Positions 5,018 through 29,206 of a stretch of 53,159 bases of DNA are shown here, one piece after another. The notes beneath the pieces were generated by a model. That model saw only the letters and a program-made list of their open reading frames with translations, had not been told where the DNA came from and did no database searches. Position numbers and translations under genes: made by a program. The stretch comes from a virus: the IMG/VR virus record IMGVR_UViG_3300024344_000019, positions 1 to 53,159 of that record. One strand, 5' to 3'. Each line of letters opens with the position of its first letter. Position 1 is the stretch's first letter.

Positions 5018-5275
5018 TTAACCTTGTTTTTTAACCATTGAGACAATGCCCCATATGATAGCCGCATATGCAGCTAACTTTACGAAAGGACCACCTAGTA
5101 CTACTAGTAGACCAAGTGCAACTAACGAAGCGCCTGACCATGTTGATATCTCTTTTATTCTTCCTTTTAACCAATCCATTTGATTTTTCTCCTTTATTGA
5201 ATTATCTCCCCATACTGCCATTTCAGCAGTCAGGTAAAGATTCCTTATTTCCTCTTTTTGAGTTCCTTGATCCAT
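5018..5275 (-). CDS. Small membrane protein, candidate holin
   Basis: 85 aa with a charged N-terminal half and a hydrophobic C-terminal half (~residues 49-80) that could form one or two transmembrane segments split around GGPF, ending KKQG. Size, topology and position at the head of the lysis-like cluster fit a holin. The 54-aa gene upstream overlaps its start by 31 nt. There is no sequence signature for holins, so this is a positional inference. Confidence 0.6.
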   Translation of the reverse strand: MDQGTQKEEIRNLYLTAEMAVWGDNSIKEKNQMDWLKGRIKEISTWSGASLVALGLLVVLGGPFVKLAAYAAIIWGIVSMVKKQG

Positions 5276-5409
5276 TTTTCTCTCACCTTTTTTACATTCT
5301 CTTTTTTTCGTAATGGATTAAGTGCTGCCATAGGCTTCATATAACTCGTAGAGGGAACTTGTAGTCCCATGGCATATTCTTTAACAAACTCTTTGTATGA
5401 TTTTGACAT
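5245..5409 (-). CDS. 54-aa basic protein with capsid-targeting-like N-terminus
   Basis: A short frame that is easy to miss: ATG at 5409 directly abuts the stop codon of the DUF5824-like gene (TAAATG), and it ends inside the next gene. The protein starts MSKSYKEFVKEYA and is rich in Lys/Arg in its second half. The start closely resembles the T4 internal-protein leader (YQEFIAEA), and small basic composition is typical of internal head proteins. It may therefore be packaged in the capsid. The tight junction on both sides supports a real gene. Confidence 0.6.
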   Translation of the reverse strand: MSKSYKEFVKEYAMGLQVPSTSYMKPMAALNPLRKKENVKKVREKWIKELKKRK

Positions 5410-6252
5410 TTACTTCTGGCCAGCACGAACTTTTTTTGCTAAATCTTTATCAGCACCGCCCCATGTTCCAGATGATTTAGTTACAAAACTATTTACTCTA
5501 GCAAATGCCCATTGTTGTTGAGTTGCACCAGGTCTATGTCCGCCTTTCCATGCAGCCATACCTCTATTGTAAACTTGTTTTAGTATCGAGTAAGGCATAC
5601 CAGTTTTCTTTGCCTTGTTTTGTAGACCTTTAATTGCTTCATCTAAATCAGCTTCTTTCATCGCCATTGCTTTTAAATGTTTTACTTTTTCTTTGATTTC
5701 GTCTTTAGGTCTTTCTAAATCAGGAATTGTTCTATCAATAGTTTCATTAATTTTAAATCTTCTTAATAGTCTATCTTTCATAGTTTCCTTATCTTTCTTT
5801 TTCTTCATTACAACTGTTGATGAATCATCACCTGTGCCTGCGACTGCTGTGCCTGTCGCATTTGCTGGGGTATCTTCGCCATACATTTGTTTATACTTTT
5901 TAGTATGTGTAGATGTTTTTGTTTTTGCTTTTTTATCGCCAGGTGCTGGTTTATAATCGTCATCATCATCTGATGGTTTATAAGTGCCTGCTTTTTTCTT
6001 AAAGAAAGCCGCTCTTTTCTTTTTTGTATCTTTATCTAAAGTCTTGTAATACTTTTTAGGTTGTGTACCTTTTACTTTTTTAACATCTTTATCTTGTGGT
6101 TGAGCATCCATATCTTCATACTTAGGACTTACTTTTTTAGTACCGTCTGCTCTAGGTATCAGACCTTTTGCTTTTAAATGAGCCTTGTCTGTAAATCCTG
6201 CTTTACCAGCTTTATATCTTTTCATAGCGTCTGCTGTATTAGGCGTTGGCAT
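5410..6252 (-). CDS. Lys-rich phage protein with DUF5824-like C-terminus
   Basis: 280 aa. The first ~165 residues are low-complexity, Lys/Asp/Thr-rich and probably disordered. The C-terminal ~75 residues carry the pattern seen in many marine phage proteins: GMPYSILKQVYNRGMAAWKG, then GHRPGATQQQWAFARVNSF and SGTWGGADKDLA. I associate this with the DUF5824 family, whose function is unknown. It overlaps the upstream 181-aa gene by 14 nt. Confidence 0.75.
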   Translation of the reverse strand: MPTPNTADAMKRYKAGKAGFTDKAHLKAKGLIPRADGTKKVSPKYEDMDAQPQDKDVKKVKGTQPKKYYKTLDKDTKKKRAAFFKKKAGTYKPSDDDDDYKPAPGDKKAKTKTSTHTKKYKQMYGEDTPANATGTAVAGTGDDSSTVVMKKKKDKETMKDRLLRRFKINETIDRTIPDLERPKDEIKEKVKHLKAMAMKEADLDEAIKGLQNKAKKTGMPYSILKQVYNRGMAAWKGGHRPGATQQQWAFARVNSFVTKSSGTWGGADKDLAKKVRAGQK

Positions 6253-6784
6253 ATAAGTCCTCCGTTGTTAAATATACATTTCTATACTTGAATACATCAT
6301 ACCCTAGTATAGTGTCTGTATTGCCTTCAAATATAACTTCTTCGTCTATATTTATGACTATATCGCCTTCTAAATCTGTAATATCTCTATTTACTCTATA
6401 TGTACCAGGTCGTAAGGGATCCCCATAATTTTCATTTACTTCAAATTCAAAACCGTTTTCTTTTAGATGTTTGTAAACTACTTTTTCTATTTCTGGATTG
6501 TAACCATTATCTTCTTTAAAAAATGCTAAAGCGGCAGCTGCAGAGGTTCCTAATGGTCCTCTAATACCTACTTTACCTAATAATTTTTTGAGATTGAATA
6601 CGAAGCGAATGAGTAATGTGTATGCTTCTCTTTTTGGTCCTGAATTAGGAAGGTCTTTTGATTTGATTAATACTTTACCTTTATCGTCTATGATACCTAA
6701 TTTAAATGCTTTGGTTCTATTAAAAGGCGTTACTAAAAGTTTTAAAACTCTGTATGCGATTAAGGCGTCTATTACTCTTCCCAT
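6239..6784 (-). CDS. Conserved phage protein, function unknown
   Basis: 181 aa. The N-terminal half is basic with a patch of hydrophobic residues (AYRVLKLLVTPFNRTKAFKLG); a central alanine-rich stretch (GTSAAAALAFF) is followed by an acidic beta-rich C-terminal half. The N-terminal pattern is familiar from other T4-like marine phages, but I cannot attach a function. It starts where the 122-aa gene ends and overlaps the next gene, so it belongs to the same transcript. Confidence 0.65.
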   Translation of the reverse strand: MGRVIDALIAYRVLKLLVTPFNRTKAFKLGIIDDKGKVLIKSKDLPNSGPKREAYTLLIRFVFNLKKLLGKVGIRGPLGTSAAAALAFFKEDNGYNPEIEKVVYKHLKENGFEFEVNENYGDPLRPGTYRVNRDITDLEGDIVINIDEEVIFEGNTDTILGYDVFKYRNVYLTTEDLYANA

Positions 6785-7152
6785 TAAATTGTTCCTAACT
6801 CTGCCATAACTTTTTGATTGATTCTTATATCGGTCATATCTTCTTCTGGCATATAATGTAAAAAAACAAGAATGGTTTTAAGTAGTGACCAGTGTTGTCT
6901 ATCTATCTTAAAAAATAATAAGGTAGTAGCAGCGTCAACACCAAATACGTTTGACAAAACAATTATATGATTAATAATCAGTCTTGACTTTAATTCTTTA
7001 GATGTGTCATACTTTCTAAATAATCTTTTCAGATATTTAAATCGTTTCATATCATCTAAAAACTCTTGTTCATCTACACATGAGGGATTATCATAATGTT
7101 TGATAGCAAACATATTAATATTCTCAGGCGTGAGATGTTTAAAATCACTCAT
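6784..7152 (-). CDS. Conserved phage protein, DUF7207-like
   Basis: 122 aa, mostly helical. The pattern KHYDNPSCVDEQEF ... LKRLFRKYDTSKELKSRL ... NHIIVLSNVFGVDAATTLLF resembles a small family found in T4-like marine phages (DUF7207, from memory). Function unknown. Start and stop overlap its neighbours, as expected for a co-translated gene. Confidence 0.7.
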   Translation of the reverse strand: MSDFKHLTPENINMFAIKHYDNPSCVDEQEFLDDMKRFKYLKRLFRKYDTSKELKSRLIINHIIVLSNVFGVDAATTLLFFKIDRQHWSLLKTILVFLHYMPEEDMTDIRINQKVMAELGTI

Positions 7153-7166
7153 AATAAAACCAATCT

Positions 7167-7188: not shown

Positions 7189-7192
7189 TTAA

Positions 7193-7627
7193 TTAAACTA
7201 AATTCGCAAATACTTTGTAAGTGTTGTTGGGTTGTTTTTCCCAATTAAATTCTAGTTTTAAACCGCCTTCTTTTCTATGAGATATGCCATCACCGTTTTC
7301 AATATCACCATCACCAGATGTTGTATTGTCAGATGTTTTTCCATATCTTCCACCAAACTGAGAAACCTCTACTACTGATTTACCATTTTTACCTTCAACT
7401 TTAGGTATGGTGTAATTTAGACCAATAGTTGCCAGTTTCATCGCTAATTGGTGCATAGCAGCGTCTGGTTGTACATATTCTTGTTCAGCGATTGCACCTA
7501 CAAAAGCATTAACTTTTTGCAAAGATTCAGGATTAGCAACATCAAAAATAGCAACATTATCGTTCTCTACTGATTGATGAGCAAATCTATCTGTATATGC
7601 TTCGTTGTATTGTTTAAAGCTCTTCAT
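7193..7627 (-). CDS. Conserved phage protein with capsid-targeting-like N-terminus
   Basis: 144 aa starting MKSFKQYNEAYTD, one of several proteins here with an MKxFxxF/Y-type leader similar to T4 internal proteins. The remainder has an acidic helical middle (residues ~30-75) and a Gly/Ser-rich beta-type C-terminus (SQFGGRYGK ... GDGISHRKEGGLKLEF). I do not recognise a catalytic family. The 57-aa gene upstream overlaps its start by 14 nt. Confidence 0.65.
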   Translation of the reverse strand: MKSFKQYNEAYTDRFAHQSVENDNVAIFDVANPESLQKVNAFVGAIAEQEYVQPDAAMHQLAMKLATIGLNYTIPKVEGKNGKSVVEVSQFGGRYGKTSDNTTSGDGDIENGDGISHRKEGGLKLEFNWEKQPNNTYKVFANLV

Positions 7628-7787: not shown

Positions 7788-7799
7788 TAATCTTTTCTC

Positions 7800-8033: not shown

Positions 8034-8054
8034 AATATCTCCATTTTAAATTAA

Positions 8055-8775: not shown

Positions 8776-8778
8776 AAT

Positions 8779-10044: not shown

Positions 10045-10052
10045 TATTTATC
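10045..10052 (-). promoter_or_regulatory. Late-type promoter box (GATAAATA)
   Basis: GATAAATA on the minus strand, 50 nt upstream of the ATG at 9994, leaving a short leader with an AAGGAG ribosome-binding site. No -35 box. Confidence 0.6.
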
Positions 10053-10578
10053 AAAAACCAATTCTCTTAAGCTGAGAAATCGTGTTTGATGTACTTGTAT
10101 GTTCAATACCTATACCCCCAGCAGCTCTAAATTGTTGAACATTCTTTGAATAATCATCAATTAAGATTGCAGGTTGTCGTTTAATCGCACTACCTTTCAT
10201 AGCAAAGTTCTTTTTTTCTCTACGCCTTACAATGTTTATCATTGAATTTTGCGTATATCCTACTTCTTTTCGTAACCATCTCATCTTTCCTGGTATACAA
10301 TTAGGATCTTCTATACTATATGCTGATAAAATATGAGGATTGTACTTTCTTAAATATGACCAAAGTTGTTTACCATCTCTAGTCCAAGGCATATTTGCCC
10401 AAAAGTTCTTTGTTTTTCTTATAGATTCCCAATCTTGTCCGTCTCGCAAACCAACCCAATTTTGACCAGTTGCTCTTTTAGCAGCAAGAATGAAATCACA
10501 TAACACTCCATCCATATCAACATAGATACGAGGCATATCGCCTTTCGCTTCTCTGTAAAATTCTTTATAATCTCTCAT
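10051..10578 (-). CDS. HAD-family 5'(3')-deoxyribonucleotidase-like enzyme
   Basis: 175 aa. HAD motif I is VDMDGVLCDF with D21 (nucleophile) and D23. The later ILIDDYSKNVQQFRAAGG is motif IV-like, with the two Asp that bind Mg. The N-terminal layout resembles NT5C-type nucleotidases, which dephosphorylate (deoxy)nucleoside monophosphates. The first 11 residues, MRDYKEFYREA, are a close match to the T4 capsid-targeting leader MKTYQEFIAEA, hinting that the enzyme is packaged. Alternative: a HAD phosphatase with another substrate. Confidence 0.8.
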   Translation of the reverse strand: MRDYKEFYREAKGDMPRIYVDMDGVLCDFILAAKRATGQNWVGLRDGQDWESIRKTKNFWANMPWTRDGKQLWSYLRKYNPHILSAYSIEDPNCIPGKMRWLRKEVGYTQNSMINIVRRREKKNFAMKGSAIKRQPAILIDDYSKNVQQFRAAGGIGIEHTSTSNTISQLKRIGF

Positions 10579-10592: not shown

Positions 10593-11234
10593 TTAATGTA
10601 GATTGCCGTTAGGTGTATTTTTACCTCCAGAAAATACCCCAATCTCTACATCAGGATTTACTTCTATTTTGGATTTACCTAAACTCATCTTTAGTTTCTT
10701 CTTATCAATTGAACCTTTTTCTTCTGGTTTGTTTTTAGAATTTTTATCTAATATAGCATTTGCAAGACCAGTTCTTAAAGGTACTTCACCAGTTTCTGGA
10801 TTTGGTTCAGGTTTTACAGTTTTATCTTTTTCTATTTTTAGTTCAAGTTCTAGTTTTTGAATTTTATCTTTAAGAGATTGTATTTCACTTTCGCTTTTAC
10901 CAGCATCTTTGTCCATAGCTCTGATTTTAGCAATCTTAACACCTGGGGCATTGTCTTTATCTATTGCTGGTATTTCTTTTTCTTCGTTTGTAGAAGGCAC
11001 TAAAAGATAGTCTCTTAATTTATTCATACTATTAGCTGCAATAGCAATCTTATTCATCCACCAACTAGGTAATGAATCTTCTGGATTCATGCCTTGTAGT
11101 TTAGACAACATCTGAGAAGCATCCTCAATTGCAGTCTTACATTGTCTTACAGCAGACGCCACATCTGTATGGCCATCTTCTTTAACCTGTCTTACTTCTT
11201 CGAGTGCTTCTTTAAATGTTTTATTATATTTCAT
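10593..11234 (-). CDS. Conserved phage protein, function unknown
   Basis: 213 aa. Starts MKYNKTFKEALEEVRQ, a leader shared with the 306-aa protein at 13278 and containing LEE, a possible prohead-protease site (I/L-x-E). Residues ~25-80 (VRQCKTAIEDASQMLSKLQG ... SWWMNKIAIAANSMNKLRDY) are the conserved part. The rest is charged coiled coil and low-complexity Lys-rich sequence. No enzyme motif is visible. The gene lies in the run of capsid-targeting-like genes. Confidence 0.6.
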   Translation of the reverse strand: MKYNKTFKEALEEVRQVKEDGHTDVASAVRQCKTAIEDASQMLSKLQGMNPEDSLPSWWMNKIAIAANSMNKLRDYLLVPSTNEEKEIPAIDKDNAPGVKIAKIRAMDKDAGKSESEIQSLKDKIQKLELELKIEKDKTVKPEPNPETGEVPLRTGLANAILDKNSKNKPEEKGSIDKKKLKMSLGKSKIEVNPDVEIGVFSGGKNTPNGNLH

Positions 11235-11235
11235 A

Positions 11236-13278
11236 TTATTTTTTTTCTACTAGACCTCTTGAAACTAATACTGCTTCTTCTAGTGAACCAGGTTTAGTTT
11301 GTAGATATCTTTTGTTAGTGCTTTCTTTTTTGTACATAGCGTTGATTTTTTTCATTGGTTCTTGCATAACAGGTTTGTCTTTTACTTTAGACATATCATC
11401 GCCACCACCATCTTTAACAGCAGCCCTTACATCTGATTTCATATAACCTGCAGCCATATCTTGTTTAGGGTCTTGCATAGTCATAGCATTCATTTTTTTA
11501 GGGTCTGTTACAGCATTCATCTTCATAGATGACATTGGTTGCATATCGTCATCACCAGTTTTCATTTCTTTTTTTGATTTCATATACATCGCTCTGATAG
11601 GCATTTTCATAGCATTCATCTTCATCATCTCTTGTGGGTTCATCATTTCTTCTACTTCTTCTTTTTTCTTTTTACCTTTTTCTTTGTAACCACTAGCAAA
11701 TGCAGCTTTTCTTTGAGCGTCTGAAGCAAAACCTTCTTTCATCGCCATTTCCATCTTTTTCATCATTTCTTTCTTCATCATCTCAGGCATTTTATCCATT
11801 TCTTTCATCATCTCTTTTTTCATCATTTCCATTTTCTCAGGATCTGTTTCTGCCTTCATCATCTCCATCTTTTTCATCATTTCTTTTTTCATCATTTCGT
11901 ATTGAGCGTTCATAGAACCATATTCTTTTAAATCTGTTTCATCTGCGATATCTTTTTCTAAAGTTTTTGCTTGTTTATCATGTGTCTTAACAGACTTTTT
12001 AAGTTGTTTGATAACAGGTTCAATAGTTTTTTTATCTTTATCGTCTAGTTCTTCTTTTTTATCTTCTTTATCTTTAATTGCTTTTTGCAATCCAGCAGGT
12101 AATTTCTTTTGTGCTGGTGTTAGTTCTTCATTCTTTGCAGTATGCATTCCATCTACATGCTTAAAGAATTTCTTTTTGTCAGCGTCCGTTTTCAGGTCAT
12201 CTAAGGAGTTAATCCCAAAGTCCTTCATGGCCGCTTTGAACTTGTCTTTATAAGTTGCCTCGTTCATGTTGTCTCCCTTTTGTTTTGATTCAGGTACAAA
12301 TTCTTCTTCTTCTATACCTAGTTGTTTTTTGACCATATTAGTTGCTGTTGCATACCTAACACTATCACCGTCTTTACCATATCTTTTAATAAAATCTTTT
12401 TTAGGCATATCGTCTGCCTTTTTGTGAACCATTTTAACTTGCGTTTTAGTCAAGTCTGCTTCTGGCACAAACTCATCTCGTATACCTAGTCTTTGTTTTT
12501 CTTTATCAATTTCTTTTTGAGTAAGCATTTCGCCTTGTTTGTCGTTTGCCTGTTTCATTCTACCTAGTTGAATTAACAAGTCTGAATATTTTGTAAATTT
12601 ACCCTCTTGCATATCTTCTCCTTGTGGGCATTCACAACCCTCTCCCTCACATCTAGGACAAGATGGATCAACACTCTCTTTTTGTTCGAATGTAGAACCA
12701 GCAAATTTTGATATATGATTTATTTTTGCGTTCTCTATTGCAGCTCTTGTAGGTGCATCCATATTAGCAATCATTTGTTTGACAGCTGGTGTTAAAGCAG
12801 AAGCAGGTTTATTCTTCCAGTCTTGTTTCATTCTCTCTAGTTGAGCGTCTGTAAAAGACCCTCTTAAATCGTTTATTTCGTTTATTAAATCTCCAAACAT
12901 TTCTTTAACTACACTTTCTGGTACACAATTAGGTACCATTCTATCGCCTTTCTTTTTAAGTCCGACTTGTTTATAACCAGTCCAACACGCCTCTTGTTGC
13001 AACTCATCTGCTTCAGCCATATCTAATGGCTTTTTAAAATCTGAATATTTTTTACCATGTTTCATAACTAGTTTAGACATAGACGCCGTTGATAAGAAAG
13101 GTATATCTGCATTTGCTAACTTCATAAGCATATCAGGCGAATACTTATTTAACATAGCATCCATTTTCTTAATATTATCCATAGATACTCTTTTACCTTT
13201 TAACGGTTCGTATTCTTTTTTAAGTTTTGTTAATTGTTGAACAGTAAACTCTTTTAATTCTTTAAATGATAGTGCCAT
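11236..13278 (-). CDS. 680-aa Met/Lys-rich repetitive phage protein
   Basis: A long modular protein of unknown function. The N-terminus (ALSFKELKEFTVQQL) is helical; residues ~95-120 carry CWTGYKQVGLKKKGDRMVPN, a motif recurring in marine phage proteins. Residues ~205-215 contain a Cys cluster (CPRCEGEGCECP) that might bind zinc. Residues ~455-520 form an extreme Met/Lys/Glu repeat of MMKKEMMKKMEM-type units. The C-terminus is again Met/Lys-rich. The start overlaps the upstream stop (TAATG). It may be an internal or scaffold-like virion protein; this is a guess from composition and neighbours. Confidence 0.65.
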   Translation of the reverse strand: MALSFKELKEFTVQQLTKLKKEYEPLKGKRVSMDNIKKMDAMLNKYSPDMLMKLANADIPFLSTASMSKLVMKHGKKYSDFKKPLDMAEADELQQEACWTGYKQVGLKKKGDRMVPNCVPESVVKEMFGDLINEINDLRGSFTDAQLERMKQDWKNKPASALTPAVKQMIANMDAPTRAAIENAKINHISKFAGSTFEQKESVDPSCPRCEGEGCECPQGEDMQEGKFTKYSDLLIQLGRMKQANDKQGEMLTQKEIDKEKQRLGIRDEFVPEADLTKTQVKMVHKKADDMPKKDFIKRYGKDGDSVRYATATNMVKKQLGIEEEEFVPESKQKGDNMNEATYKDKFKAAMKDFGINSLDDLKTDADKKKFFKHVDGMHTAKNEELTPAQKKLPAGLQKAIKDKEDKKEELDDKDKKTIEPVIKQLKKSVKTHDKQAKTLEKDIADETDLKEYGSMNAQYEMMKKEMMKKMEMMKAETDPEKMEMMKKEMMKEMDKMPEMMKKEMMKKMEMAMKEGFASDAQRKAAFASGYKEKGKKKKEEVEEMMNPQEMMKMNAMKMPIRAMYMKSKKEMKTGDDDMQPMSSMKMNAVTDPKKMNAMTMQDPKQDMAAGYMKSDVRAAVKDGGGDDMSKVKDKPVMQEPMKKINAMYKKESTNKRYLQTKPGSLEEAVLVSRGLVEKK
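11745..11915 (-). repeat. Degenerate tandem repeat coding for Met-Met-Lys-Lys-Glu units
   Basis: On the plus strand the text repeats TTCATCATTTC / TCATCATCTC-type units of ~12-24 nt. The protein repeat is (M)MKKEMMKKMEMM. Sequence of this kind expands and contracts by slippage. Confidence 0.7.
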
Positions 13279-14198
13279 TATTTTAACCTCGGATAATACT
13301 TTCTAACTAAAGCATTTCTTTTTGAATAATCAGGATCAGTTATGTGACCTCTTTGTTTATGTCTTTTATCAATATCTTCCATATCTTTAATTTCTTGTGA
13401 TGTACCAAACTCTTTTGCTAACATAATAGCATTTAAAGAATGGTCGTTCTCATCTTCGTTTCTATCAAATTCTTTTTTAGTAAATCTTTCTTCTAAGTTT
13501 TCAGCAACAACTTTTGCACCATAGAAGTTTTGTAAGTCTGTACCGATAGCATTAAGTTCTGCACCTTTGCCATCAACTTTCATTACTAAACCTTTTGCGT
13601 CTATTGTAAAACCATATTTTGCTAAATCAGTAGAAGCCTTTGACATTGTAGCCATGTCTCTAAAAGTAACAGTCATTTTTTTGTACTCTTTGATTGTTTC
13701 TTCTTTTAGACCTTTTGGTTTCATAAGAGACATATAACCTGTTTGATTGCCATACATTTTTTTAAATGTAGCAGGTTCTTTTTTACTGATTACACTCATT
13801 ACATATTCTCTAGGTTCTGTATCAGCGTTGTAAATATGATTACCTAATGCTACATAATCTTTTTTTTTCAATAAATCTGCTGACTTTTTATACATTTGAT
13901 AGTCCATACTATCTCGTCTAGTATTTGTTCTATCAATTTCTCTAGCAGCAACACTTTCTTCTAATTCTTCGTTTGCTCTTTTTAATGCGTTTGCAACATC
14001 TGGATGACTTGCCAAACCTTTTGCAATCTTCTCAATAGCAGCATAAGCACCTGAATAGTTTCCTTGTTTATATCTAGGATCGTTTAGAACACCATATGCC
14101 ATTTTGATTTGTTGACTTGAAAAGCCTTTATCTTCATTGACAGGATCTCTATATGACCTTGCTTCTTCTAAAGCTTCTCTCATTGTTTTTCTGTACAT
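13278..14198 (-). CDS. Conserved phage protein, function unknown
   Basis: 306 aa. The N-terminus MYRKTMREALEEARS resembles that of the 213-aa protein and contains LEE, a possible prohead-protease site. Residues ~25-75 (FSSQQIKMAYGVLNDPRYKQ, then GNYSGAYAAIEKIAKGL) form a helical module that I recognise as recurring in marine phage proteins but cannot name. No catalytic motif is visible. TAATG overlap with the upstream 759-aa gene indicates coupled translation. Confidence 0.6.
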   Translation of the reverse strand: MYRKTMREALEEARSYRDPVNEDKGFSSQQIKMAYGVLNDPRYKQGNYSGAYAAIEKIAKGLASHPDVANALKRANEELEESVAAREIDRTNTRRDSMDYQMYKKSADLLKKKDYVALGNHIYNADTEPREYVMSVISKKEPATFKKMYGNQTGYMSLMKPKGLKEETIKEYKKMTVTFRDMATMSKASTDLAKYGFTIDAKGLVMKVDGKGAELNAIGTDLQNFYGAKVVAENLEERFTKKEFDRNEDENDHSLNAIMLAKEFGTSQEIKDMEDIDKRHKQRGHITDPDYSKRNALVRKYYPRLK

Positions 14199-16477
14199 TA
14201 TAGTTGTTCCTTCATTTTTTCAACTGCTTTGTCGAGTTCGACTTTCCAGTTTTCTTTAAATCTTTTCTTATATTTATCTATTGTTCCACCTTCATTCTTG
14301 AATTTTTGCAAGTCCTTGTCAGTTATTTTGTCTGTTGACCTTCTAAAATTCTGTATTGGTTGACCTGGTGTCATTTTCATTGTATGCTGAGCATACTCAT
14401 CTGTACCTATTTCGTAAGATTCGTCTGCTCTCATCTCTTGTTCTAGTCTATCTAATAGATTAATACTTCTTCTACCTTCTATTTTATCTTGATAATCTTC
14501 TTTTTTCATTTGTTTTGTCTTTTCTTTCATCTGGTTTATATACTTACGATATATTGCTGCCTCAGCAGTCTTACCCATTTCTCTTGCTCTCTGTTCCATT
14601 GCAACAGCAGCCTGAATTTTATGTGCGTGAGTTTTGCCAGAATTTTTAATTTTGTTTATACTTGCCTTTGCAGTTGCTACATCTTTAAATCCAAGACCTT
14701 GAATTGTGCCTTTTGGATTTTCATCTGTATATAAATCAGAATGTTTATCTGAACCTGCAGGTTGACCTTTTTTTCTAGGTATTCTTGGTTCTTCTTCTAA
14801 TGATTGTATATCATATAACCATGCCTTCTTAATAAGACCGTCACTCTCATATGAAACATAATTTGAGCCTCGTCTTACAATCATACCCATTGAACCGTCC
14901 ATGTGTTCAATTATATCACCAATATTAAATATTCTTTCTTGATGATATTCTTCTCTTAAATCGTTGTTTAAAAAGTTTGTAAAACTTTCTATACTTTCTC
15001 TTATACCCATGCCTTTTTTAACAGCATTAAATAATTCTTTTGTGTCTGAATCTGAAAGACCAGTTACACCTGTTTTAAAGTTTCTGTAATCATTGTTCTT
15101 TGCCATCTCTCTCATCTTTGAAGCTGACATTCCTGAAACACCTTCAGCATCTGGATCTCTTTCGCCAGAAGAAACTACTGTAACTTTTTTGTATTCATAA
15201 TCTTTGCCATTGTACTTATCAGCAAGAGATTGAAATTCTCGTATTCTATCACTACCTGCAACCATGATTACTTCACCATACATCTTATTATAGAACTTTA
15301 ATATCTCCATAAATGTTCTTTGATTACCACCTGCCGCCTGTATCTTATTTTGTGGGAACATCTTTTTCATAAACTTAACTTTTGTGTTTACATCTAATGG
15401 ATTTTTTCTTCTATCGGTTGAGGCGCTAGCATAAACAATGTGGTTAGCATTATTTTTTCTAGCTTGTGTAATCACTTCCTTCATAAGTTTAGCATGGCCT
15501 GTGGTAGGAGGGTTGAACCTACCAAAAGCAAAAATCAATTTGTTTGCCTTATCTAACGCCTCTCCGATTGCCCTCGTTTTACTTTGGGCAGATTCTACAT
15601 ATTTTAAAGAGTCTATCTCATCATCTGTAACCTTACCATCATCTAAAATCTTCTTACACTTTTTCAAAAAAGTTAAGTAGTGATATTTCTCTAACATTTT
15701 ATAAATTACATTTTTAGGTAATCTGTTTTTAATACTATAAGTTTTAATTTCATCTGGTGTCATATCTTTATCAAACGCAGCTCTTCTTTCAGCGTCAACT
15801 TCAGTACCGATGTCTGTTAAATCTTGTATATCTTTTTCTATTTCACCTAGTTTGTTACTAATTCTTTTTTCTAAATCTTTAATCTCACCAGGTTTTAATT
15901 CTGTTAATTCGTCATAGTCTATAATATCTCTTTTTAATTCACCTTTCAACATATCTATTTTGTCAACTTGTTTTTGAAAGTCTTTTAGATACAAGTTAGG
16001 ATTAAAATCAAATTCTTCTGGTCGTTTTTCAAATGATTGACCTTTAATATCAAATACAGCGTCTGCCTTTTTGTTTTGGTCATCATAAGTTTTTTTATCT
16101 GTAATAAAATAATAGTTAATAGGATGTTTTGTTCCTGGTATTAATTTACCTTGTATATTATCTGGATTACTAGACGCTAAATATTTCTTAGATAGTCTTA
16201 ATCTTTCTTCTTCTTGTTTTTCTTCTGGTACATCAAATAAAACATTGATATCTAAATCAGCGTCATTACGATATCTTTTTGTAAGTATAGAACCTATCAA
16301 ACTATAATCTAATATAGGATATTCTGATTCAAATTCTTTAAATTGTTCCGTGATTAATCTTAATACACTATCTTTAATTTTAGGATTATCTGTATCTTCA
16401 TCATCAAAAACACTAGGAGCATATGTGCGTCTAGGTATATCAATGATTGATTCTTTAAATAGTTTAAAACTTTTCAT
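14198..16477 (-). CDS. Two-domain nucleotidyltransferase (NTase + cytidylyltransferase-like)
   Basis: 759 aa. Starts MKSFKLFKESI (capsid-targeting-like). Residues ~45-85 look like a polymerase-beta-type minimal nucleotidyltransferase (SLIGSILTKRYRNDADLDIN: GS plus DxD). Residues ~310-480 look like a HxGH-type cytidylyl/adenylyltransferase: FAFGRFNPPTTGHAKLM, then SGMSASKMREMA, the equivalent of the ISAT motif. That fold transfers NMP groups in NAD and phospholipid synthesis. Residues ~595-660 (SDLYTDENPKGTIQGLGFKD ... HAHKIQAAVAMEQRARE) are a module found in other marine phage proteins. NMN adenylyltransferase activity is possible; the substrate is unknown. Confidence 0.75.
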   Translation of the reverse strand: MKSFKLFKESIIDIPRRTYAPSVFDDEDTDNPKIKDSVLRLITEQFKEFESEYPILDYSLIGSILTKRYRNDADLDINVLFDVPEEKQEEERLRLSKKYLASSNPDNIQGKLIPGTKHPINYYFITDKKTYDDQNKKADAVFDIKGQSFEKRPEEFDFNPNLYLKDFQKQVDKIDMLKGELKRDIIDYDELTELKPGEIKDLEKRISNKLGEIEKDIQDLTDIGTEVDAERRAAFDKDMTPDEIKTYSIKNRLPKNVIYKMLEKYHYLTFLKKCKKILDDGKVTDDEIDSLKYVESAQSKTRAIGEALDKANKLIFAFGRFNPPTTGHAKLMKEVITQARKNNANHIVYASASTDRRKNPLDVNTKVKFMKKMFPQNKIQAAGGNQRTFMEILKFYNKMYGEVIMVAGSDRIREFQSLADKYNGKDYEYKKVTVVSSGERDPDAEGVSGMSASKMREMAKNNDYRNFKTGVTGLSDSDTKELFNAVKKGMGIRESIESFTNFLNNDLREEYHQERIFNIGDIIEHMDGSMGMIVRRGSNYVSYESDGLIKKAWLYDIQSLEEEPRIPRKKGQPAGSDKHSDLYTDENPKGTIQGLGFKDVATAKASINKIKNSGKTHAHKIQAAVAMEQRAREMGKTAEAAIYRKYINQMKEKTKQMKKEDYQDKIEGRRSINLLDRLEQEMRADESYEIGTDEYAQHTMKMTPGQPIQNFRRSTDKITDKDLQKFKNEGGTIDKYKKRFKENWKVELDKAVEKMKEQL

Positions 16478-16734
16478 TCTCCCCCATTTCCATTACCATT
16501 AGTACCGTTACCATTTGAACCATTACCATTAGTACCATTGCCGTTTGTATTATTGTTTGTGTTATCATCTGATTGTTGATTGTCTTGTCCATTACCATTT
16601 CGACCACCAAAATAAGGATAATATCTAGTTACTCCAGTAGGCACACACACTTGTAATTTTTTATCAAACCTATATCCTTCAGGACATTTCTTTGTTTGTT
16701 GTGCAGCCGTAATAAAACTTCTAAATGAATCCAT
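16474..16734 (-). CDS. 86-aa protein with Cys pair and Asn-Gly repeats
   Basis: I choose the ATG at 16734, which overlaps the upstream stop as TAATG and has AAAAGG before it; a TTG 15 nt upstream is less likely. The protein starts MDSFRSFITAAQQTK (leader-like). It then has CPEGYRFDKKLQVCVPTG, two Cys likely forming a disulfide or small metal site, and ends in a 40-residue Asn/Gly/Thr repeat. The combination suggests a structural or packaged protein with a flexible tail. Family not recognised. Confidence 0.65.
   Translation of the reverse strand: MDSFRSFITAAQQTKKCPEGYRFDKKLQVCVPTGVTRYYPYFGGRNGNGQDNQQSDDNTNNNTNGNGTNGNGSNGNGTNGNGNGGE
16484..16555 (-). repeat. Asn-Gly coding tandem repeat
   Basis: Plus-strand units of ACCATTA/ACCGTTA-type (about 15-18 nt) encode (T/S)NGNG repeats at the C-terminus of the 86-aa protein. 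Confidence 0.65.
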
Positions 16735-17972
16735 TATCCTTTTACCCAATCTTTTGCCATATTAAAGTTTGCTTTACTAAACTCTAATCTGTCAACTAGT
16801 TTAACAGCACCGCCTTTTTGAATTGCTACATATCCTTCAGGATTTGTAACTTTGTATCCATTACTTGTTCTCAAAAATGAACCGATACTTTGTATAGTAT
16901 TTAATCTTCTTAACAATACAGCTTTTGCTGATTGAAATGTAATATAAGTTGCAATCGCAAAATATAAACCGTCTCTATTTGCTCTTAATATTTTCATACC
17001 TGCTTCAAGTATTTCTTCATACTTTTGTTTTGCAGCTGGTGTTTTTTTACTATCTATTTCTTTTTTAATTCTGCCTCTAAAATAAACTTCAAAATTATTT
17101 GCTAACTTTGATGTATTTGTAATTGCTGTGCCTTGTCTTATATAAACATTAAAAAATGTTTTCATTTGAACACCTAGTGATAAAGGTCCTGTATCTTTTT
17201 TTAGTTTATCAACAAACGCACCTGCCTTATAAGCAGAACCCTCTGCCATTCTAATAATATTATCAAATGCTTTTTCTTCAGCAGGACTAAAAGCTGCACC
17301 ATCAGCTCTTTTATAAGTTGCGTCATCAAAGAATACATTTTTACTTTTTTTCAAACCTCTAACATTAGCACCAAATCCTGCCTTTAGTGTTGCCATTGTT
17401 TTGCCTGAATAAGATGTATGAAATATAATACCTATTTTTGCACTATTAACTTCTTTATATATGTTTCTACCAAGACCTAGAAAACCTGAACTTACGACAG
17501 GTACTGCATATGTAATAGTGTTAGGGGTAAATATGATTGATTTCTTACCTGCAACATTAGCAGTCTTTTTATCGCCACTTGCAAAGAGTAAATCGCCTTG
17601 TAAAATTCCTGAGATGCCTAGAGATGGTAAATATTTTAAACACTCTTTTAATTTATCAGCAAGAGCACCACCATGATTTCTACTGATATCAGCATTTGTA
17701 TAGTTTATTTTAGGTGTTTTATTAAAGATAGATTTAGTACCGACAAAGAACTTTCCGTTCTCAGGATTGATACCACAAAAGACCGCAGGTGCACCGTCCC
17801 ATTTTACTGAAACTGTGGATCCACCTGACCCTCCTTGTAACATCTGTTTGATAGACTTTAAAAACTCTATTGCTGTTTTAGCTCCACGACTTCCATTATT
17901 AATTATTTCGTCTTCCAGATGTTCAAGATGTGTGTTCTTATCTTCGATAAGATAATCTTGAAATTTCTGCAT
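16734..17972 (-). CDS. Ligase-like covalent nucleotidyltransferase (KWDG), possible DUF6267 member
   Basis: 412 aa. SVKWDGAPAVF (K57) looks like motif I (KxDG) of DNA/RNA ligases and mRNA-capping enzymes. GKFFVGTKS (~73-81) and ILQGDLLF (~123-130) sit where motifs III/IIIa would be; PEGYVAI (~378-384) looks like motif IV, and AVKLVDR (K391) like motif V. The N-terminus MQKFQDYLIED matches the capsid-targeting pattern and contains L-I-E, a possible prohead-protease site. A perfect early promoter and a GGAGAG ribosome-binding site precede it. I infer a divergent nucleotide-transfer enzyme; the substrate is unknown and ligation activity is unproven. Confidence 0.6.
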   Translation of the reverse strand: MQKFQDYLIEDKNTHLEHLEDEIINNGSRGAKTAIEFLKSIKQMLQGGSGGSTVSVKWDGAPAVFCGINPENGKFFVGTKSIFNKTPKINYTNADISRNHGGALADKLKECLKYLPSLGISGILQGDLLFASGDKKTANVAGKKSIIFTPNTITYAVPVVSSGFLGLGRNIYKEVNSAKIGIIFHTSYSGKTMATLKAGFGANVRGLKKSKNVFFDDATYKRADGAAFSPAEEKAFDNIIRMAEGSAYKAGAFVDKLKKDTGPLSLGVQMKTFFNVYIRQGTAITNTSKLANNFEVYFRGRIKKEIDSKKTPAAKQKYEEILEAGMKILRANRDGLYFAIATYITFQSAKAVLLRRLNTIQSIGSFLRTSNGYKVTNPEGYVAIQKGGAVKLVDRLEFSKANFNMAKDWVKG

Positions 17973-17994: not shown

Positions 17995-18023
17995 ATTATA
18001 ACACTATTATTTATAATAGTCAA
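17995..18023 (-). promoter_or_regulatory. Early promoter of the ligase-like gene
   Basis: TTGACT (18023-18018), 17-nt spacer, TATAAT (18000-17995). GC precedes the -35 box. The leader of ~15 nt carries GGAGAG, unlike the leaderless early promoters elsewhere. Confidence 0.88.
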
Positions 18024-18034: not shown

Positions 18035-19123
18035 CTATAAGTAGTTAAAATCCCCCATGATCCTAGTCGGATATCCGTCACCACCTTGTGTGTCTCTTAT
18101 ATTTACTTTCATTTTATACTTTGGTGTCTTAATTACCATATCAATTCTCTTACCTTGACCGCCTAATCCACCATAAAAAACTTGACAAGATAAAGGTTTA
18201 GTCGCACTCAACATATATGCCCTATCTACTTTGAAAGATTTGATACCAGAAGGCAATTTATGAATGACATGAAAACCATAGCCTAAACCTGATTGTAAAA
18301 ATTCTTCTAGATATTTTTTATTTACTTTACCAAATGTATTACTACTATATCCTTTTGCTAATTTACCATTAAATATTTGACAAAATGTTTTATTGTCAAT
18401 ACCAAACATCTTCAATAGTTTTAGACCATCTGGATTCTTAACCATACCACTCTGTATTTCATCTTTAGTTAATATCTTTTTAATACCAATATTAAAGAAA
18501 GTTGTAGTACCACCTAGTTTTAAACTTAAATAAGATACAACTTCATTTCTTGCATAACGCTCTACATTTTTATTTTTATGTATAGTTAAATCTGTTACTA
18601 CTGGACCAATATCTAAACTACCTGTTGGTGATGTTATGAAAGGTCCTGGTTTAAATGCTAAAGGTCTCTTTGTGTTTAAAGCACCTTCTTCTTTTACATT
18701 TAATGTTTTTAATTTTTTGAATTTATATGTTTTTGCTAAATCTTCTATAGCCTTTAACATAGCAGGATCTTCTACTTTATCACCACCCCAATAATTGTTT
18801 ATCTCTCTTGCAAAATTATTTTCAAAAAGATTACCTCTATTCGCAACACCTCTGTTACCAGCAGAACCAGCACCAAACTTAATTTTAACTTTATCTAATT
18901 TTGCTTCTTTTTGAATTGTTTTTAAATCAGCAGTACCTTGCAAATCTCTTGTTACATTTACTATACTTAATTTACCAGGATCAATATTGATTGGTATTTT
19001 TACTGTTTTATATTTTCTTTTGAGAAAAGAAAAAAGCTCAACTATCTCACCACCTTTTACAGCGTCTGATTTAACAACTTTTAATATGTCAGCTGTTTTT
19101 TCTGGGAATACAGTATATGCCAT
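18035..19123 (-). CDS. Unknown phage protein, possible PD-(D/E)XK nuclease fold
   Basis: 362 aa. I do not recognise a named family. Residues ~90-105 (NRGNLFENNFAREIN) give a helix with a conserved-looking Glu; ~170-200 contain DIGPVVTDLTI, then VSYLSLKLGGTT. An acidic residue in a strand followed by an (S)LK strand is reminiscent of PD-(D/E)XK nucleases. This is weak pattern evidence only. It has its own promoter with the ATG just 7 nt past the -10 box and no Shine-Dalgarno. Confidence 0.55.
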   Translation of the reverse strand: MAYTVFPEKTADILKVVKSDAVKGGEIVELFSFLKRKYKTVKIPINIDPGKLSIVNVTRDLQGTADLKTIQKEAKLDKVKIKFGAGSAGNRGVANRGNLFENNFAREINNYWGGDKVEDPAMLKAIEDLAKTYKFKKLKTLNVKEEGALNTKRPLAFKPGPFITSPTGSLDIGPVVTDLTIHKNKNVERYARNEVVSYLSLKLGGTTTFFNIGIKKILTKDEIQSGMVKNPDGLKLLKMFGIDNKTFCQIFNGKLAKGYSSNTFGKVNKKYLEEFLQSGLGYGFHVIHKLPSGIKSFKVDRAYMLSATKPLSCQVFYGGLGGQGKRIDMVIKTPKYKMKVNIRDTQGGDGYPTRIMGDFNYL

Positions 19124-19130
19124 ACTGCTA

Positions 19131-19159
19131 TTTATATACTAACAGTACCGTTTTGTCAA
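19131..19159 (-). promoter_or_regulatory. Early promoter with embedded late-type box
   Basis: TTGACA (19159-19154), 17-nt spacer, TATAAA (19136-19131). The same -10 reads TATAAATA at 19136-19129, a perfect T4-type late box, 5 nt before the ATG at 19123. It could be used both early (sigma70) and late (gp55). Confidence 0.82.
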
Positions 19160-25044: not shown

Positions 25045-27539
25045 TAGAAGAAGTTATCCAGGGTTGCTTGTTTTTCAAAATTCCAGTTGATTGCATTGAC
25101 AATAAATCGTAATGGTTCTAAAAATGACTTGTCAAACTGCTCATCAAAATCAATATATTGGTGTAGATTAAATTCTTTTGGTAAGTGTGTTGGGAAAGAT
25201 ATCACCTTTTCTCTTAATGGATTAGGTTCTTTTAAAACAATAAATTTAATCTTATCGCCTTCTTGTATTACTTCATACTTTCTTAATTTGTTTTTCTTTA
25301 GTAAATTATTATACAGTAGAGCACCTTTCACATGAATTGGTGTTGACTTTTGATATATGTCTGTTGATGAAGAATACTTTTTAAGATTATTACATGAACG
25401 AGGATAAGCAATTTCTTCTGGTCGTAACTTTTTGAAATGTGTTCTAAACTCATCAATAAATTGTATCAAAGCATTTTCATCTTTATTCATAATTACTTTC
25501 AATGCCTCTTTAATCTTGATACGACAAGGGGCAGGAGTTGAACTCTTAACTGCTTCAATACCCATAATCTTTAATTTAGGTTCTTTCAAATCAACACCTT
25601 CTTCATTATAAACATTTAAGATATATCTTTTCTTAGCAGTCCAGATACCTTTGTTTGCAATTACTTCTCGTTTCATAATCATTTTTTGGTCAAATGCTTT
25701 TACATATTTAGCAAGATTATCATAACTCTTATCAATTGCAATTTGTAATTTTTCTTCACAAAATTTATCTAGAACTTTTACAATCTTTCTTGTATCAGAT
25801 TTATCTTTAAATATTTTATCTACAACTGCACCAAGTTTTACATAGATAGAATCAGTATCAGAAGCCACAACATAAACTACGTTTTTAGTTTTAAGTAAAT
25901 TATTTAAATAATTATTTACGTCTCTTTCAATCCATCTAATCGCAAGTTGACCTGCCTTTGTAATACCTTCAGCGTGTCTTACATCAAAATATTTAAAGTA
26001 TTGATTGCCGATAGCACCATAGGCACTATTCAAAGCAATCTTTCTTGCAAGTTGAATATTATGGTTAGCAGCGATATCATTTAATAATCTTTTATCACCA
26101 GTTTCTTGATACAAAGATTTTGCTTCTAACATTTTCTTTTTATATACAACTCGTTCTTTATAAAGTTTCTCCATCAACTTAGGAAGAAAACCTCGTTTGT
26201 CTGTACGAAACTGAGCACCGTTTGGTGTTATGGTACAACCATCTAAATGAGATAAATCAGATTCTTGATTTAACATTTTTTCAACACTTACAGAATTAGG
26301 TTCAAACCCGACCATTGTTTCAGGAGATATATTATACTGCATAATCAAATGAGGATATAGACTATTCAAATCAAAACTACAAATCCAATCGTGAAAACCT
26401 ACAACTGGATCTTTTACATATGCACCTTCATAACCACCAGAATATTCGTTTTCATTTACAGCAGGACAAACAAGTTTATTCTCTTTTAGATAATTAAATA
26501 TAATTGTATCCCACATACGAACTTGACCAAATACATCTTGATAATTAACTTTTGCTTCATAGGCCATAGTTAAGTGTAAAGCAATCAACTGCATTTTATC
26601 TTCTAACTTATCAACTATCTCAACGTCTTGAATATTATACTCTACAAATAATTGATAGTCGTTAGAATAAAACTCTTTGAAAGTATCATATGGATTCTCT
26701 AATTTATTTTCACCTAATTCTACTTCACCGATATAATCTAGTTTATAACTTTCTTGTCTAACAAATGTATGTTTACGATATAAGTCAAGATAATCTAAAA
26801 CTGAAACACCTAAAATATCATAATAGTTTTGTTCTTTGTTAAAACCTTTAGCAGTTATTCTTGCACTACTTTGATTTACGATACCCCAAGGACTAAACTG
26901 ATTTAAATATTCATCGCCCATAAGATATTTAAATCGATTCATTAAATAAGGAATATCAAAGAACTTAACATTCCAACCAGTTACAACATCTGGATTATAA
27001 GCAGTCCAGAACTTTGTAAACTTTTGTATTAAATCTCTTTCAGTAGAACATTTAAAATATTTTACATCATCACGGTCATTGACAAAGTTGCCACATCCAA
27101 AAACAATAATACTTTTTCTTGCATGGTCTTTTACAGTAATACAGATTAAAGGTTCTTCAGCCTTATCTACATCAGGAAAACCATTTTCACTTTCACACTC
27201 AATGTCAATTGTGATTAATCTTATTTGTTTAATATCCCAATCAACTTTGCCTGGGAACTCATCTGCGATATATGGATATTGAAATCTTGTATTACCAAAA
27301 TATTCAAAGTTAGTTACATCTTTGTATTCGTCAATCCATTTTCTTGCCTCGAACATACTATCATGTTCAATCTTTGCTACATTACGACCATCTAATGTTT
27401 TATATCCTGTTTCTTTTTGAACAGGTGTAAACAAAGACGGTTTGTAATTTACTCTAAACTTTTTGTGGCTGCCATCATGGTTAACTCCTCTTACTAAGAG
27501 TCGACCTTTATATGGCAGCACACTAGTATAAAATTTCAC
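25044..27539 (-). CDS. 43: Family B DNA polymerase, T4 gp43-like
   Basis: 831 aa (T4: 898). Proofreading ExoI is LITIDIECE with D112 and E114, the same numbering as T4. The polymerase A motif is DLNSLYPHLI; the B motif is KIALNSAYGAIGN; the C motif is VVASDTDSIYV, with the catalytic Asp pair. The protein ends QATLDNFF, a match to the QxxLxxFF clamp-binding box, expected to hold gp45. The start codon is GTG, overlapping the upstream stop as TAGTG. No intein is visible. Confidence 0.96.
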   Translation of the reverse strand: MKFYTSVLPYKGRLLVRGVNHDGSHKKFRVNYKPSLFTPVQKETGYKTLDGRNVAKIEHDSMFEARKWIDEYKDVTNFEYFGNTRFQYPYIADEFPGKVDWDIKQIRLITIDIECESENGFPDVDKAEEPLICITVKDHARKSIIVFGCGNFVNDRDDVKYFKCSTERDLIQKFTKFWTAYNPDVVTGWNVKFFDIPYLMNRFKYLMGDEYLNQFSPWGIVNQSSARITAKGFNKEQNYYDILGVSVLDYLDLYRKHTFVRQESYKLDYIGEVELGENKLENPYDTFKEFYSNDYQLFVEYNIQDVEIVDKLEDKMQLIALHLTMAYEAKVNYQDVFGQVRMWDTIIFNYLKENKLVCPAVNENEYSGGYEGAYVKDPVVGFHDWICSFDLNSLYPHLIMQYNISPETMVGFEPNSVSVEKMLNQESDLSHLDGCTITPNGAQFRTDKRGFLPKLMEKLYKERVVYKKKMLEAKSLYQETGDKRLLNDIAANHNIQLARKIALNSAYGAIGNQYFKYFDVRHAEGITKAGQLAIRWIERDVNNYLNNLLKTKNVVYVVASDTDSIYVKLGAVVDKIFKDKSDTRKIVKVLDKFCEEKLQIAIDKSYDNLAKYVKAFDQKMIMKREVIANKGIWTAKKRYILNVYNEEGVDLKEPKLKIMGIEAVKSSTPAPCRIKIKEALKVIMNKDENALIQFIDEFRTHFKKLRPEEIAYPRSCNNLKKYSSSTDIYQKSTPIHVKGALLYNNLLKKNKLRKYEVIQEGDKIKFIVLKEPNPLREKVISFPTHLPKEFNLHQYIDFDEQFDKSFLEPLRFIVNAINWNFEKQATLDNFF

Positions 27540-27769
27540 TATATTTGTGTATTATTAAAATGTTTATTTAACGAATGTATTTTTTCTTCGGCAGTTGATA
27601 TTATTTCTAACTGTTTATCCATTTCACTAATGTGTTGTGGATGTTCGCCGATACCTACTGAATTATCAAAATATACAATTAAAGTAGCATACGCTTCTGC
27701 TATCTGTGCTTCGTATCTTTTTGACAATGCCTTGAATAACGGATTGTCTGCTTGGTGATTTTTAGCCAT
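27539..27769 (-). CDS. 76-aa conserved phage protein upstream of gp43
   Basis: Helical small protein; its core DNSVGIGEHPQHISEMDKQL is a pattern I have seen in T4-like marine phages near gp43. Function unknown. It has its own early promoter with a good AAGGAG ribosome-binding site and is translationally linked to gp43. Confidence 0.65.
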   Translation of the reverse strand: MAKNHQADNPLFKALSKRYEAQIAEAYATLIVYFDNSVGIGEHPQHISEMDKQLEIISTAEEKIHSLNKHFNNTQI

Positions 27770-27794
27770 GTTTGTTCACTCCTTTTCATAACAT

Positions 27795-27823
27795 ATTATA
27801 ACACAATACAATTGATTTGTAAA
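27795..27823 (-). promoter_or_regulatory. Early promoter of the gp43-methyltransferase operon
   Basis: TTTACA (27823-27818), 17-nt spacer, TATAAT (27800-27795). GC precedes the -35 box. The ~20-nt leader contains AAGGAG. Confidence 0.85.
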
Positions 27824-27826
27824 GCG

Positions 27827-29206
27827 TTAATCTAAACTATATTTTGTCGTAACGACATATTTTCTGTCTGGATTTACCATAACATTTACTCTACTCATAA
27901 ACTCTCGGTCAAATAGAATTGGTGTTCTATCTTCTCTATCATCTAAAGTAAATTCTGTTTCATACATAGTACCTAGAAACTCCACATCTAGTTTAATGAC
28001 ATATCTGGTTTCGTCATAGTCTCTTAAACCGCCTACTGATATTTCTTCTTGTCGAATGATATCACTTGTGATAGTTTTATCTAGTAAAGACCATGTAATC
28101 TTTTTACCATTAACTTTCATTTTATCAGCATGAATAACTGACATGCCTGAATTACCTGTATCAAACTTAGCGATAATTTCACCAAATGGTTTGATAGTTA
28201 CAATTTCTTTGTAACCACACTCACTTGGTACTTTGACCCAATTCTTTTTCTCAGCAAAAAATTCTATAATTTCTTTACTAATATTTTGACCACTTGCTTC
28301 TTCCATACCTTCAGTACCAGGAGATGAGTTTACCTCAATCACAAATGGAGGCTCTTTTTCTCTATTCTTACTTGGTATAAAGTCAACAGCAGTCCATAGT
28401 CCATTAACTGCTTTTGCAGCCTTTAAACTTTCTTCTATTTCTAATTCTGTTAGTTCAATTTTTTCTGGTTTAGAACCTTGCGATACGTTACTTCTAAAGT
28501 CACCTTCAATAACAGGTCGCTTCATTGTAGCAAGTATCTTGCCGCCTAAGACTAATACTCTAACATCATAATCTGTTTTAATATATTCTTGTAAAAGTAA
28601 ATCTGTATCTTCGTCTTGTTTGTAAATTAATTGTACAATACTGTCTAATGCTTTTTCTGATTCAATAAACAATACACCAACACCTTTTGACCCCCTTAAA
28701 GTTTTCATAATCACAGGCATTTGTGTATCTAGTTTATCAAATGCTAGTGCTGATTTTTCTGGATCGTTTATTAAAGTAGTTTTAGGTTGTCGAATACCAT
28801 AATCAGAAAGTCTTAGTGCTGTTCTATATTTGTCTGTACAAATATTGATTGTTTGCCTACTATTGATGACACAAACACTATGTTTTTCTAATGAAGATAT
28901 AATATCCATCCAACTATCTTTTCTGACAACTGAACCTCTTATGATTGCGATTGTGTCTTTACCTGAAACTTCAAAACCTTTTTCATCTTCTTTATTATGT
29001 AATCTAAAAATACCATCTTCGTATGAAGTATAACCACCAGTTAGTTTATACAGATAATGTTTCCATCCTAATTTCTCTGCTTCTTCTTTGAGTCTATCAG
29101 CAGTATGAAAGGTCTTTGCCTTTTCAGGCTCATCTGTTATAATCAGTAGTTTATACTTTTCAGTTTTAGCTTCTGTTATAAAGTCTTTAAACTTCGGTGC
29201 CTTCAT
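27827..29206 (-). CDS. RimK-type ATP-grasp ligase fused to RimB-type retropepsin-like protease
   Basis: 459 aa. Starts MKAPKFKDFITEAKTEKY (capsid-targeting-like). Residues ~100-330 are an ATP-grasp ligase of the RimK type: VIMKTLRGSKGVGVLFI, LLQEYIKTDYDVRVLVLGGK, then VIEVNSSPGTEGMEEASG. RimK adds glutamates to ribosomal protein bS6. Residues ~335-459 look like the RimB/ATP-dependent zinc-protease family: GEIIAKFDTGNSGMSVIHA with the D-T-G catalytic signature at ~347-349, then DRTPILFDREFM. RimB is the partner that trims glutamates. Both activities in one chain is unusual. Overlaps regA by 20 nt. Confidence 0.85.
   Translation of the reverse strand: MKAPKFKDFITEAKTEKYKLLIITDEPEKAKTFHTADRLKEEAEKLGWKHYLYKLTGGYTSYEDGIFRLHNKEDEKGFEVSGKDTIAIIRGSVVRKDSWMDIISSLEKHSVCVINSRQTINICTDKYRTALRLSDYGIRQPKTTLINDPEKSALAFDKLDTQMPVIMKTLRGSKGVGVLFIESEKALDSIVQLIYKQDEDTDLLLQEYIKTDYDVRVLVLGGKILATMKRPVIEGDFRSNVSQGSKPEKIELTELEIEESLKAAKAVNGLWTAVDFIPSKNREKEPPFVIEVNSSPGTEGMEEASGQNISKEIIEFFAEKKNWVKVPSECGYKEIVTIKPFGEIIAKFDTGNSGMSVIHADKMKVNGKKITWSLLDKTITSDIIRQEEISVGGLRDYDETRYVIKLDVEFLGTMYETEFTLDDREDRTPILFDREFMSRVNVMVNPDRKYVVTTKYSLD

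Follow-up and report, generated by a model that had tools for sequence, protein, structure and literature searches.

A short N-terminal leader resembling the T4 capsid-targeting sequence on unrelated proteins of a T4-like marine phage contig

We analysed a 53,159-base virus contig (IMGVR_UViG_3300024344_000019; GC content 32%), referred to below as the window, and found that seven different proteins encoded on it share a short N-terminal leader with two aromatic residues three positions apart, usually at residues 4 and 7. An original prediction made from this DNA had likened the leader to the capsid-targeting sequence (CTS) of phage T4, and the two agree at the genetically defined positions 4, 7, 8 and 10 (PMC9026906). 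The reading of this peptide as a packaging leader is supported by the residue match to T4, by the presence of leader-bearing proteins in virions of related phages and by the specificity of the leader to phages. We consider it probable that it is a CTS of the T4 kind, marking cargo that is packaged and delivered. No paper describing the leader in marine T4-like phages was found in a search that left preprints and subscription journals largely outside its coverage.

Leader-bearing proteins in the window

The original prediction named nine proteins sharing the leader. All nine open reading frames (ORFs) are present, on the minus strand; each is named here by its low coordinate, and its start codon sits at the high end. 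Six of the nine N-termini (5245, 7193, 10051, 14198, 16734 and 27827) fit the template [FY]xx[FY] followed by E within 2-3 residues. The start of 16474, MDSFRSFITAA, has both aromatics without the E, and the remaining two, 10593 and 13278, share another kind of start and are alike at the N-terminus. The aromatic pair at 4 and 7 is thus carried by the six proteins and 16474, with a shift of 1-2 residues in two cases. The members are as follows, a slash marking the predicted cut.

5245-5409, minus strand: 54-amino-acid protein, N-terminus MSKSYKEFVKEYA; leader at 5377-5409, MSKSYKEFVKE/YA, register +1.
7193-7627, minus strand: 144-amino-acid protein; leader at 7598-7627, MKSFKQYNE/AY.
10051-10578, minus strand: HAD/NT5C-type 5'-deoxynucleotidase gene; leader at 10549-10578, MRDYKEFYRE/AKGDMPRIYVDMDGV, with Y4, F7 and E10 in register.
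14198-16477, minus strand: cytidylyltransferase/NMNAT-like gene; leader at 16448-16477, MKSFKLFKES, with F4, F7 and E9.
16474-16734, minus strand: small Cys protein; leader-like start at 16705-16734, MDSFRSFITAAQQTKKCPEGY, read from the ATG at 16734.
16734-17972, minus strand: DUF6267 gene; leader at 17943-17972, MQKFQDYLIE/DKNTHLEHLEDE.
27827-29206, minus strand: RimK ATP-grasp plus RimB-like Zn protease gene, N-terminus MKAPKFKDFITEA; leader at 29171-29206, MKAPKFKDFITE/AKTEKYKLL, register +2.

The motif as first written, (Y/F)xxF(I/L/V)xE, is followed exactly by only 5245 and 27827, and by 10051 and 16734 with one relaxed residue. A cleavage site of the form L/I-x-E is provided by L-I-E in 16734 and I-T-E in 27827 and approximated by V-K-E in 5245 and Y-R-E in 10051; the E comes one residue early in 7193 and 14198.

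A motif search over all 67 window proteins, which the original prediction had proposed, gave seven template matches, where composition-preserving shuffles of the N-termini lead one to expect 0.43 and internal positions 0.49 (P<=0.0005). With the aromatics at other distances there were 0-2 matches, and only the 3-residue spacing is enriched. The seventh match, 18035 (MAYTVFPEK), is probably due to chance and the other six are real leaders; the gene of Methylophilales phage Melnitz at the place equivalent to 18035 has the leader MQGFKTFLSEA, a link of position only. A shared start could arise by coincidence in AT-rich genes, whose first codons tend to specify Lys, Phe, Ile and Glu, and the low GC content and the two of nine examples that fail the template are in keeping with this, but the shuffles, the single enriched spacing, the chance level of matches in cellular genomes and the invariance of F4 over 47 distinct DUF6267 leaders (both below) make it very improbable.

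The products are diverse. For 10051, the Pfam match to NT5C (5.5e-5) is slightly under the cut-off and the PHROG match is to 5'-3' deoxyribonucleotidase (8e-26); among its close orthologs E10 is found in 9/9 and residue 7 is F, Y or L. The product of 14198 matches Pfam CTP_transf_like (1.1e-5) and that of 16734 matches Pfam DUF6267 (1.4e-123). The assignment of 27827 as a RimK-RimB protein was correct, with RimK ATP-grasp (PF08443, 6e-39; PDB RimK, 4.8e-25) and Zn_protease (PF05618, 8e-8) both found, the latter above the cut-off. Homologs of 7193 begin MKSFKDFQ (gp139 of Pelagibacter phage HTVC008M) and MKNFKNHIAEE (Melnitz), and IMG/VR also holds MKSFKQFNEAG; the Melnitz protein syntenic with 5245 is MKTFLQFEQSYSYAMG.

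Match to the T4 sequence and its cleavage site

The first ten residues of T4 IPIII are required for packaging, residues 4 and 7 acting in targeting and residues 8 and 10 in processing, and gp21 cleaves T4 proteins after L/I-x-E (PMC9026906). The N-terminus of T4 ipIII is MKTYQEFIAEA, and the 16734 leader (MQKFQDYLIE/D) matches it position by position. T4 gp23 contains FGSFLTE/AE, where the slash marks what we take to be the cut position, and the marine major capsid proteins have GLLTE/AP (S-CREM2), SGSFLAE/AP (S-SCSM1) and FLGE/I (HTVC008M) at the aligned site. Marine capsid propeptides end in an [FL]LxE/A site, a form that the leader ends resemble. One protease could therefore act on both, and removal of the leader is likely where it has the E.

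Leader-bearing proteins in virions of relatives

Virion contents were taken from published mass spectrometry. For cyanophage S-CREM2, all 219 genes were translated and compared with the 52 virion proteins listed in PMC10665884. The leader stands in register in six proteins, of which five are in virions (Fisher p=0.003): the S-adenosylmethionine (SAM) lyase gp6 (Pfam 2.3e-19), the kinase gp14, gp15, gp136 and the cytidylyltransferase gp154. The sixth, gp184 (MSNFTPYSEYF), is probably a chance match. Using the strict expression of the original prediction, with named structural proteins left out, the virion fraction was 5/6 versus 23/189 (p=2e-4). A loose expression gave no significant link to S-CREM2 virions (p=0.15, or 0.02 without named structural proteins), and only the stricter forms are significant.

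Two other S-CREM2 virion proteins carry related starts. By eye, gp13 (MKDLHSFLTEQ, with L4) fits the leader, and gp12 has an offset leader, RFASFMAEA, beginning at about codon 18; a start of gp12 at codon 17 was rejected, that codon being CTG, and the leader was treated as offset instead. This gp12 (L005:7704-10313) is annotated as Cas9, a label that looks doubtful; the protein has no Pfam match at E 0.05.

The same holds in two other cyanophages, where S-SCSM1 gp91 (MKSFLQFLKEA) and S-SZBM1_140 (MRFRQFIIEA) are both virion proteins. The window protein 14198 is homologous to S-CREM2 gp154 (E=3e-34) and S-SCSM1 gp91 (E=2e-54), both of which have strict leaders and are found in virions, and its relatives are in the virions of four phages, S-CREM2, S-SCSM1, S-SZBM1 and S-SM1, the S-SM1 member being the cytidylyltransferase of core cluster T4-GC190. 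Virion proteomics does not distinguish head from tail, and the leader might target tail or baseplate or bind another phage structural protein; this is very unlikely, as the leader end resembles the end of the major capsid propeptide, which is cut in the prohead in T4, and the head core is where the T4 leader is directed.

The small Cys protein 16474 has a short match to the virion protein S-CREM2 gp15 (MNFSEFNES...CPEGYKWNKKLGKC; 20 amino acids, E=8e-4) and by eye resembles IMG/VR L116, MKSFDRFIEEAATKRCPTGEYYCF. In S-SCSM1, the virion protein gp29 (L010:42662-44215) lacks a leader but begins with a run rich in Cys, CKPGYYWCYTDKKCKK, much as 16474 and L116 do, so proteins with such starts may reach virions by another route. 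The 69-amino-acid virion protein S-SCSM1 gp93 (L006:31627-31836) has a leader-like C-terminal end, KKRTFKEFLEYIE, which suggests that the tag may also work at the C-terminus.

Breadth in viruses and specificity against cells

IMG/VR was searched at the DNA level with the pattern MK..FxxF[hydrophobic]xEA, and the following figures hold among the matches listed. Every complete ORF that begins at a match (112 of 112) is at least 60 amino acids long, and 119 leader proteins, compared with the leader taken off, group into at least 34 unrelated families. These include cytidylyltransferases, DUF6267 proteins, a GNAT acetyltransferase, an RlpA-like lytic transglycosylase (Pfam 4.7e-11) and a HAD nucleotidase recognised by its likeness to window 10051. 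For L141 and L192, Pfam did not support an identification as ADP-ribosyltransferases.

The leader is at chance level in 257 gigabases of bacterial and archaeal genomes, and so is not equally common outside phages, which the original prediction had named as grounds for doubt. In a control pattern with residue 4 left free (F5, F7), F or Y at residue 4 was found in 112/120 viral and 7/74 cellular matches (Fisher p=1.6e-34, a value that overstates independence since the viral matches are mutually related; the family count is free of that weakness). This pattern overlaps the leader, many leaders being MKSFFQF, and serves as a test of residue 4. The cellular matches were mostly short chance ORFs, 55/72 complete ORFs being under 60 amino acids.

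A P-loop nucleotide-kinase-like protein (GGPGSGKSTY) with the leader MKSFRDFIFE or MKTFLNFLKEA lies near DUF6267 in many IMG/VR contigs. Leader-bearing examples are:

L258, from 5527: P-loop kinase-like.
L259, from 4224: P-loop kinase-like.
L271, from 3184: P-loop kinase-like.

Conservation of the leader in DUF6267 and RimK-RimB proteins

An IMG/VR search with DUF6267 returned at least about 600 related stretches. Over 47 distinct DUF6267 leaders, which come from related orthologs and are not independent observations, F4 is present in 47/47, F or Y at 7 in 45/47, a hydrophobic residue at 8 in 46/47 and E10 in 25/47, the other residues being variable. Cyanophage DUF6267 orthologs are leaderless and start MAKNTHLEHLEDD, the point at which the predicted cut leaves the window protein; one of them, S-SZBM1_141, is absent from the virion list of S-SZBM1. 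In the RimK-RimB family, FxxF[IL][TS]E is present in all 52 orthologs examined, followed by a linker that varies in length and sequence. One ortholog has a different leader, MEKFKSFITEA, which still has F4, F7, I8 and E10; the Melnitz ortholog is MTQKFSQFITEE.

The conserved element could in principle be a DNA or RNA signal, such as a site for RegA or ribosome binding, rather than a peptide, and its location at the start codon and the use of TTT for F4 in 46/47 DUF6267 leaders are what one would expect of such a signal. However, residue 7 is kept aromatic through four codons (TTT, TTC, TAT and TAC), the motif is displaced by 1-2 codons in 27827 and 5245 and within the RimK family (MEKF versus MKAPKF), and in S-CREM2 gp12 it starts at about codon 18, which leaves a nucleic-acid signal highly improbable.

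The original prediction also called 16734 ligase-like, a description that we did not retain. K57-W-D-G60 is invariant in 30 DUF6267 sequences and EGYVA is conserved close to the C-terminal end, features also seen in covalent nucleotidyltransferases. Only the KxDG motif favours a ligase: there was no convincing PDB sequence match, and a model of mean pLDDT 71 gave no fold match.

A separate N-terminus in 10593 and 13278

The two remaining proteins were dropped as leader proteins because they do not fit the template and their related motif belongs to one family.

10593-11234, minus strand: non-member, starts MKYNKTFKEALEEV; N-terminus like that of a large variable family.
13278-14198, minus strand: non-member, starts MYRKTMREALEEA; N-terminus like that of 10593.

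Their N-termini are 38% identical over 34 amino acids (E=4e-4). All 118 clustered IMG/VR matches to the related motif, MxxYxKTMxEA, fall in one family of large variable proteins. This conserved N-terminus, the second besides the leader, has the form MSxYRKTMxEAxxEV (10593 and 13278; IMG/VR L323-L442) and marks a family of large, fast-changing marine phage proteins of up to 1288 amino acids.

Genome context

Gene content and order match those of T4-like marine phages. Among complete records, that of HTVC008M has the closest DUF6267 protein (53% identity), and the window UvsX has 77% identity to that of Melnitz and 73% to that of HTVC008M. Nearly all window genes are on the minus strand. Most leader proteins are encoded in one block, lying between the helicase gene gp41 and nrdA, that shows broad synteny across these phages and cyanophages. 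The RimK-RimB gene 27827 stands apart from this block, adjoining regA and near gp43; in Melnitz, too, a RimK protein is encoded close to the DNA polymerase gene. At 4227-5012, adjoining the leader block, is a predicted lipase-like protein (GHSLGAALA), and a lipase-like virion protein has been reported for cyanophage S-CREM1.

Two sequences resembling T4-type late promoters lie before genes of the leader block:

19129-19136, minus strand: TATAAATA, 13 nucleotides before 18035-19123, the first gene of the block.
18008-18015, minus strand: TATAAATA, preceding the DUF6267 gene, which bears the leader.

The window has seven matches (8779, 18008, 19129, 32827, 33361, 33623 and 52724), a count not above chance. 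All seven are on the coding strand and several directly precede genes, as T4-type late promoters would; strand and position lend weak support to this role.

Interpretation

We propose that during head assembly the two aromatics, at 4 and 7 or in some cases 1-2 residues away, would bind the prohead core, so enclosing the attached protein. The prohead protease would cut those leaders that have a site after hydrophobic-x-E, as in the major capsid protein propeptide, freeing the cargo, which would leave with the DNA at infection. The predicted cargo comprises the deoxynucleotidase, the DUF6267 protein, the NMN adenylyltransferase-like enzyme, the RimK-RimB-like enzyme and small proteins. We infer core binding, cutting and injection, the last by analogy with T4, whose leader-bearing proteins are delivered into the host, where IPI* protects DNA (PMC3012670, PMC9026906).

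The leader might instead dock structural or assembly factors on the scaffold or inner shell, these being kept in the head or destroyed and the enzymes acting in assembly with no injection. Leader and major capsid cleavage sites are alike, packaging data are silent on ejection and leaders lacking E10 could hold proteins on the core. This is rather unlikely in view of the host entry of the T4 proteins and of the SAM lyase among the S-CREM2 cargo, an enzyme most sensible in the host cell as infection begins.

Several points weigh against the packaging and delivery reading. Packaging is well supported in relatives; for the window phage it is predicted from sequence, and neither a prohead protease nor a capsid gene was identified in the window, which is a fragment. 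The S-CREM2 and S-SCSM1 authors caution that highly expressed proteins can persist through virion purification, and they allow that these enzymes may be contaminants. The S-SCSM1 leader protein gp30 was undetected in the virion proteomics, leader enrichment in S-SCSM1 alone is not significant (4 versus 1.8 expected, P=0.10), and cultured HTVC008M has no excess of strict leaders (1 versus 1.0-1.3 expected). Some leaderless proteins of the block are present in virions, so the leader is not the sole route. Cutting cannot be universal, because 16474 lacks E10, as do about half the DUF6267 leaders.

We lean slightly towards a broader reading, that the leader is a general delivery tag which, like a secretion signal, has moved among dozens of families and injects ready-made enzymes in marine T4-like phages; with the same slight preference, these enzymes would serve NAD metabolism, nucleotide metabolism, protein modification, SAM destruction, phosphorylation by a kinase and cell-wall lysis. 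If so, a leader search would predict injected effectors straight from metagenomes. The question addressed is which of the many uncharacterised proteins that abundant ocean phages encode are carried into the host along with the DNA. Virion proteomics could not separate true cargo from contamination, and a short sequence rule gives a prediction that can be checked against mass-spectrometry files and sequence collections already at hand, picking out candidate injected enzymes that include the RimK-RimB-like protein modifier and DUF6267.

Comparison with known systems

The closest parallel is the CTS of T4 IPI, IPII and IPIII, an N-terminal stretch of 10-13 residues with aromatics at 4 and 7, a hydrophobic residue at 8 and E10, then A, which is likewise common to different internal proteins. 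In contrast to the T4 sequence, the window leader occurs in marine Kyanoviridae-like phages and on many enzyme families, and is sometimes shifted by 1-2 residues or lacks E10. The injected ADP-ribosyltransferase Alt of T4, which is cut by the prohead protease, is similar in being an enzyme delivered from the head, but the enzymes differ. The ejection proteins of the giant phages SPN3US and phiKZ also have N-terminal propeptides that a prohead protease cuts after glutamate, but these are mostly over 100 residues long, the SPN3US site is A-x-E and no common FxxF leader is reported (PMC5694885). Finally, the virion NMNAT-like and kinase proteins of S-CREM2, S-SCSM1 and S-SZBM1 share the leader with the window proteins and, for 14198, are homologous enzymes; in the passages of those reports consulted here, their presence in virions is not tied to any leader.

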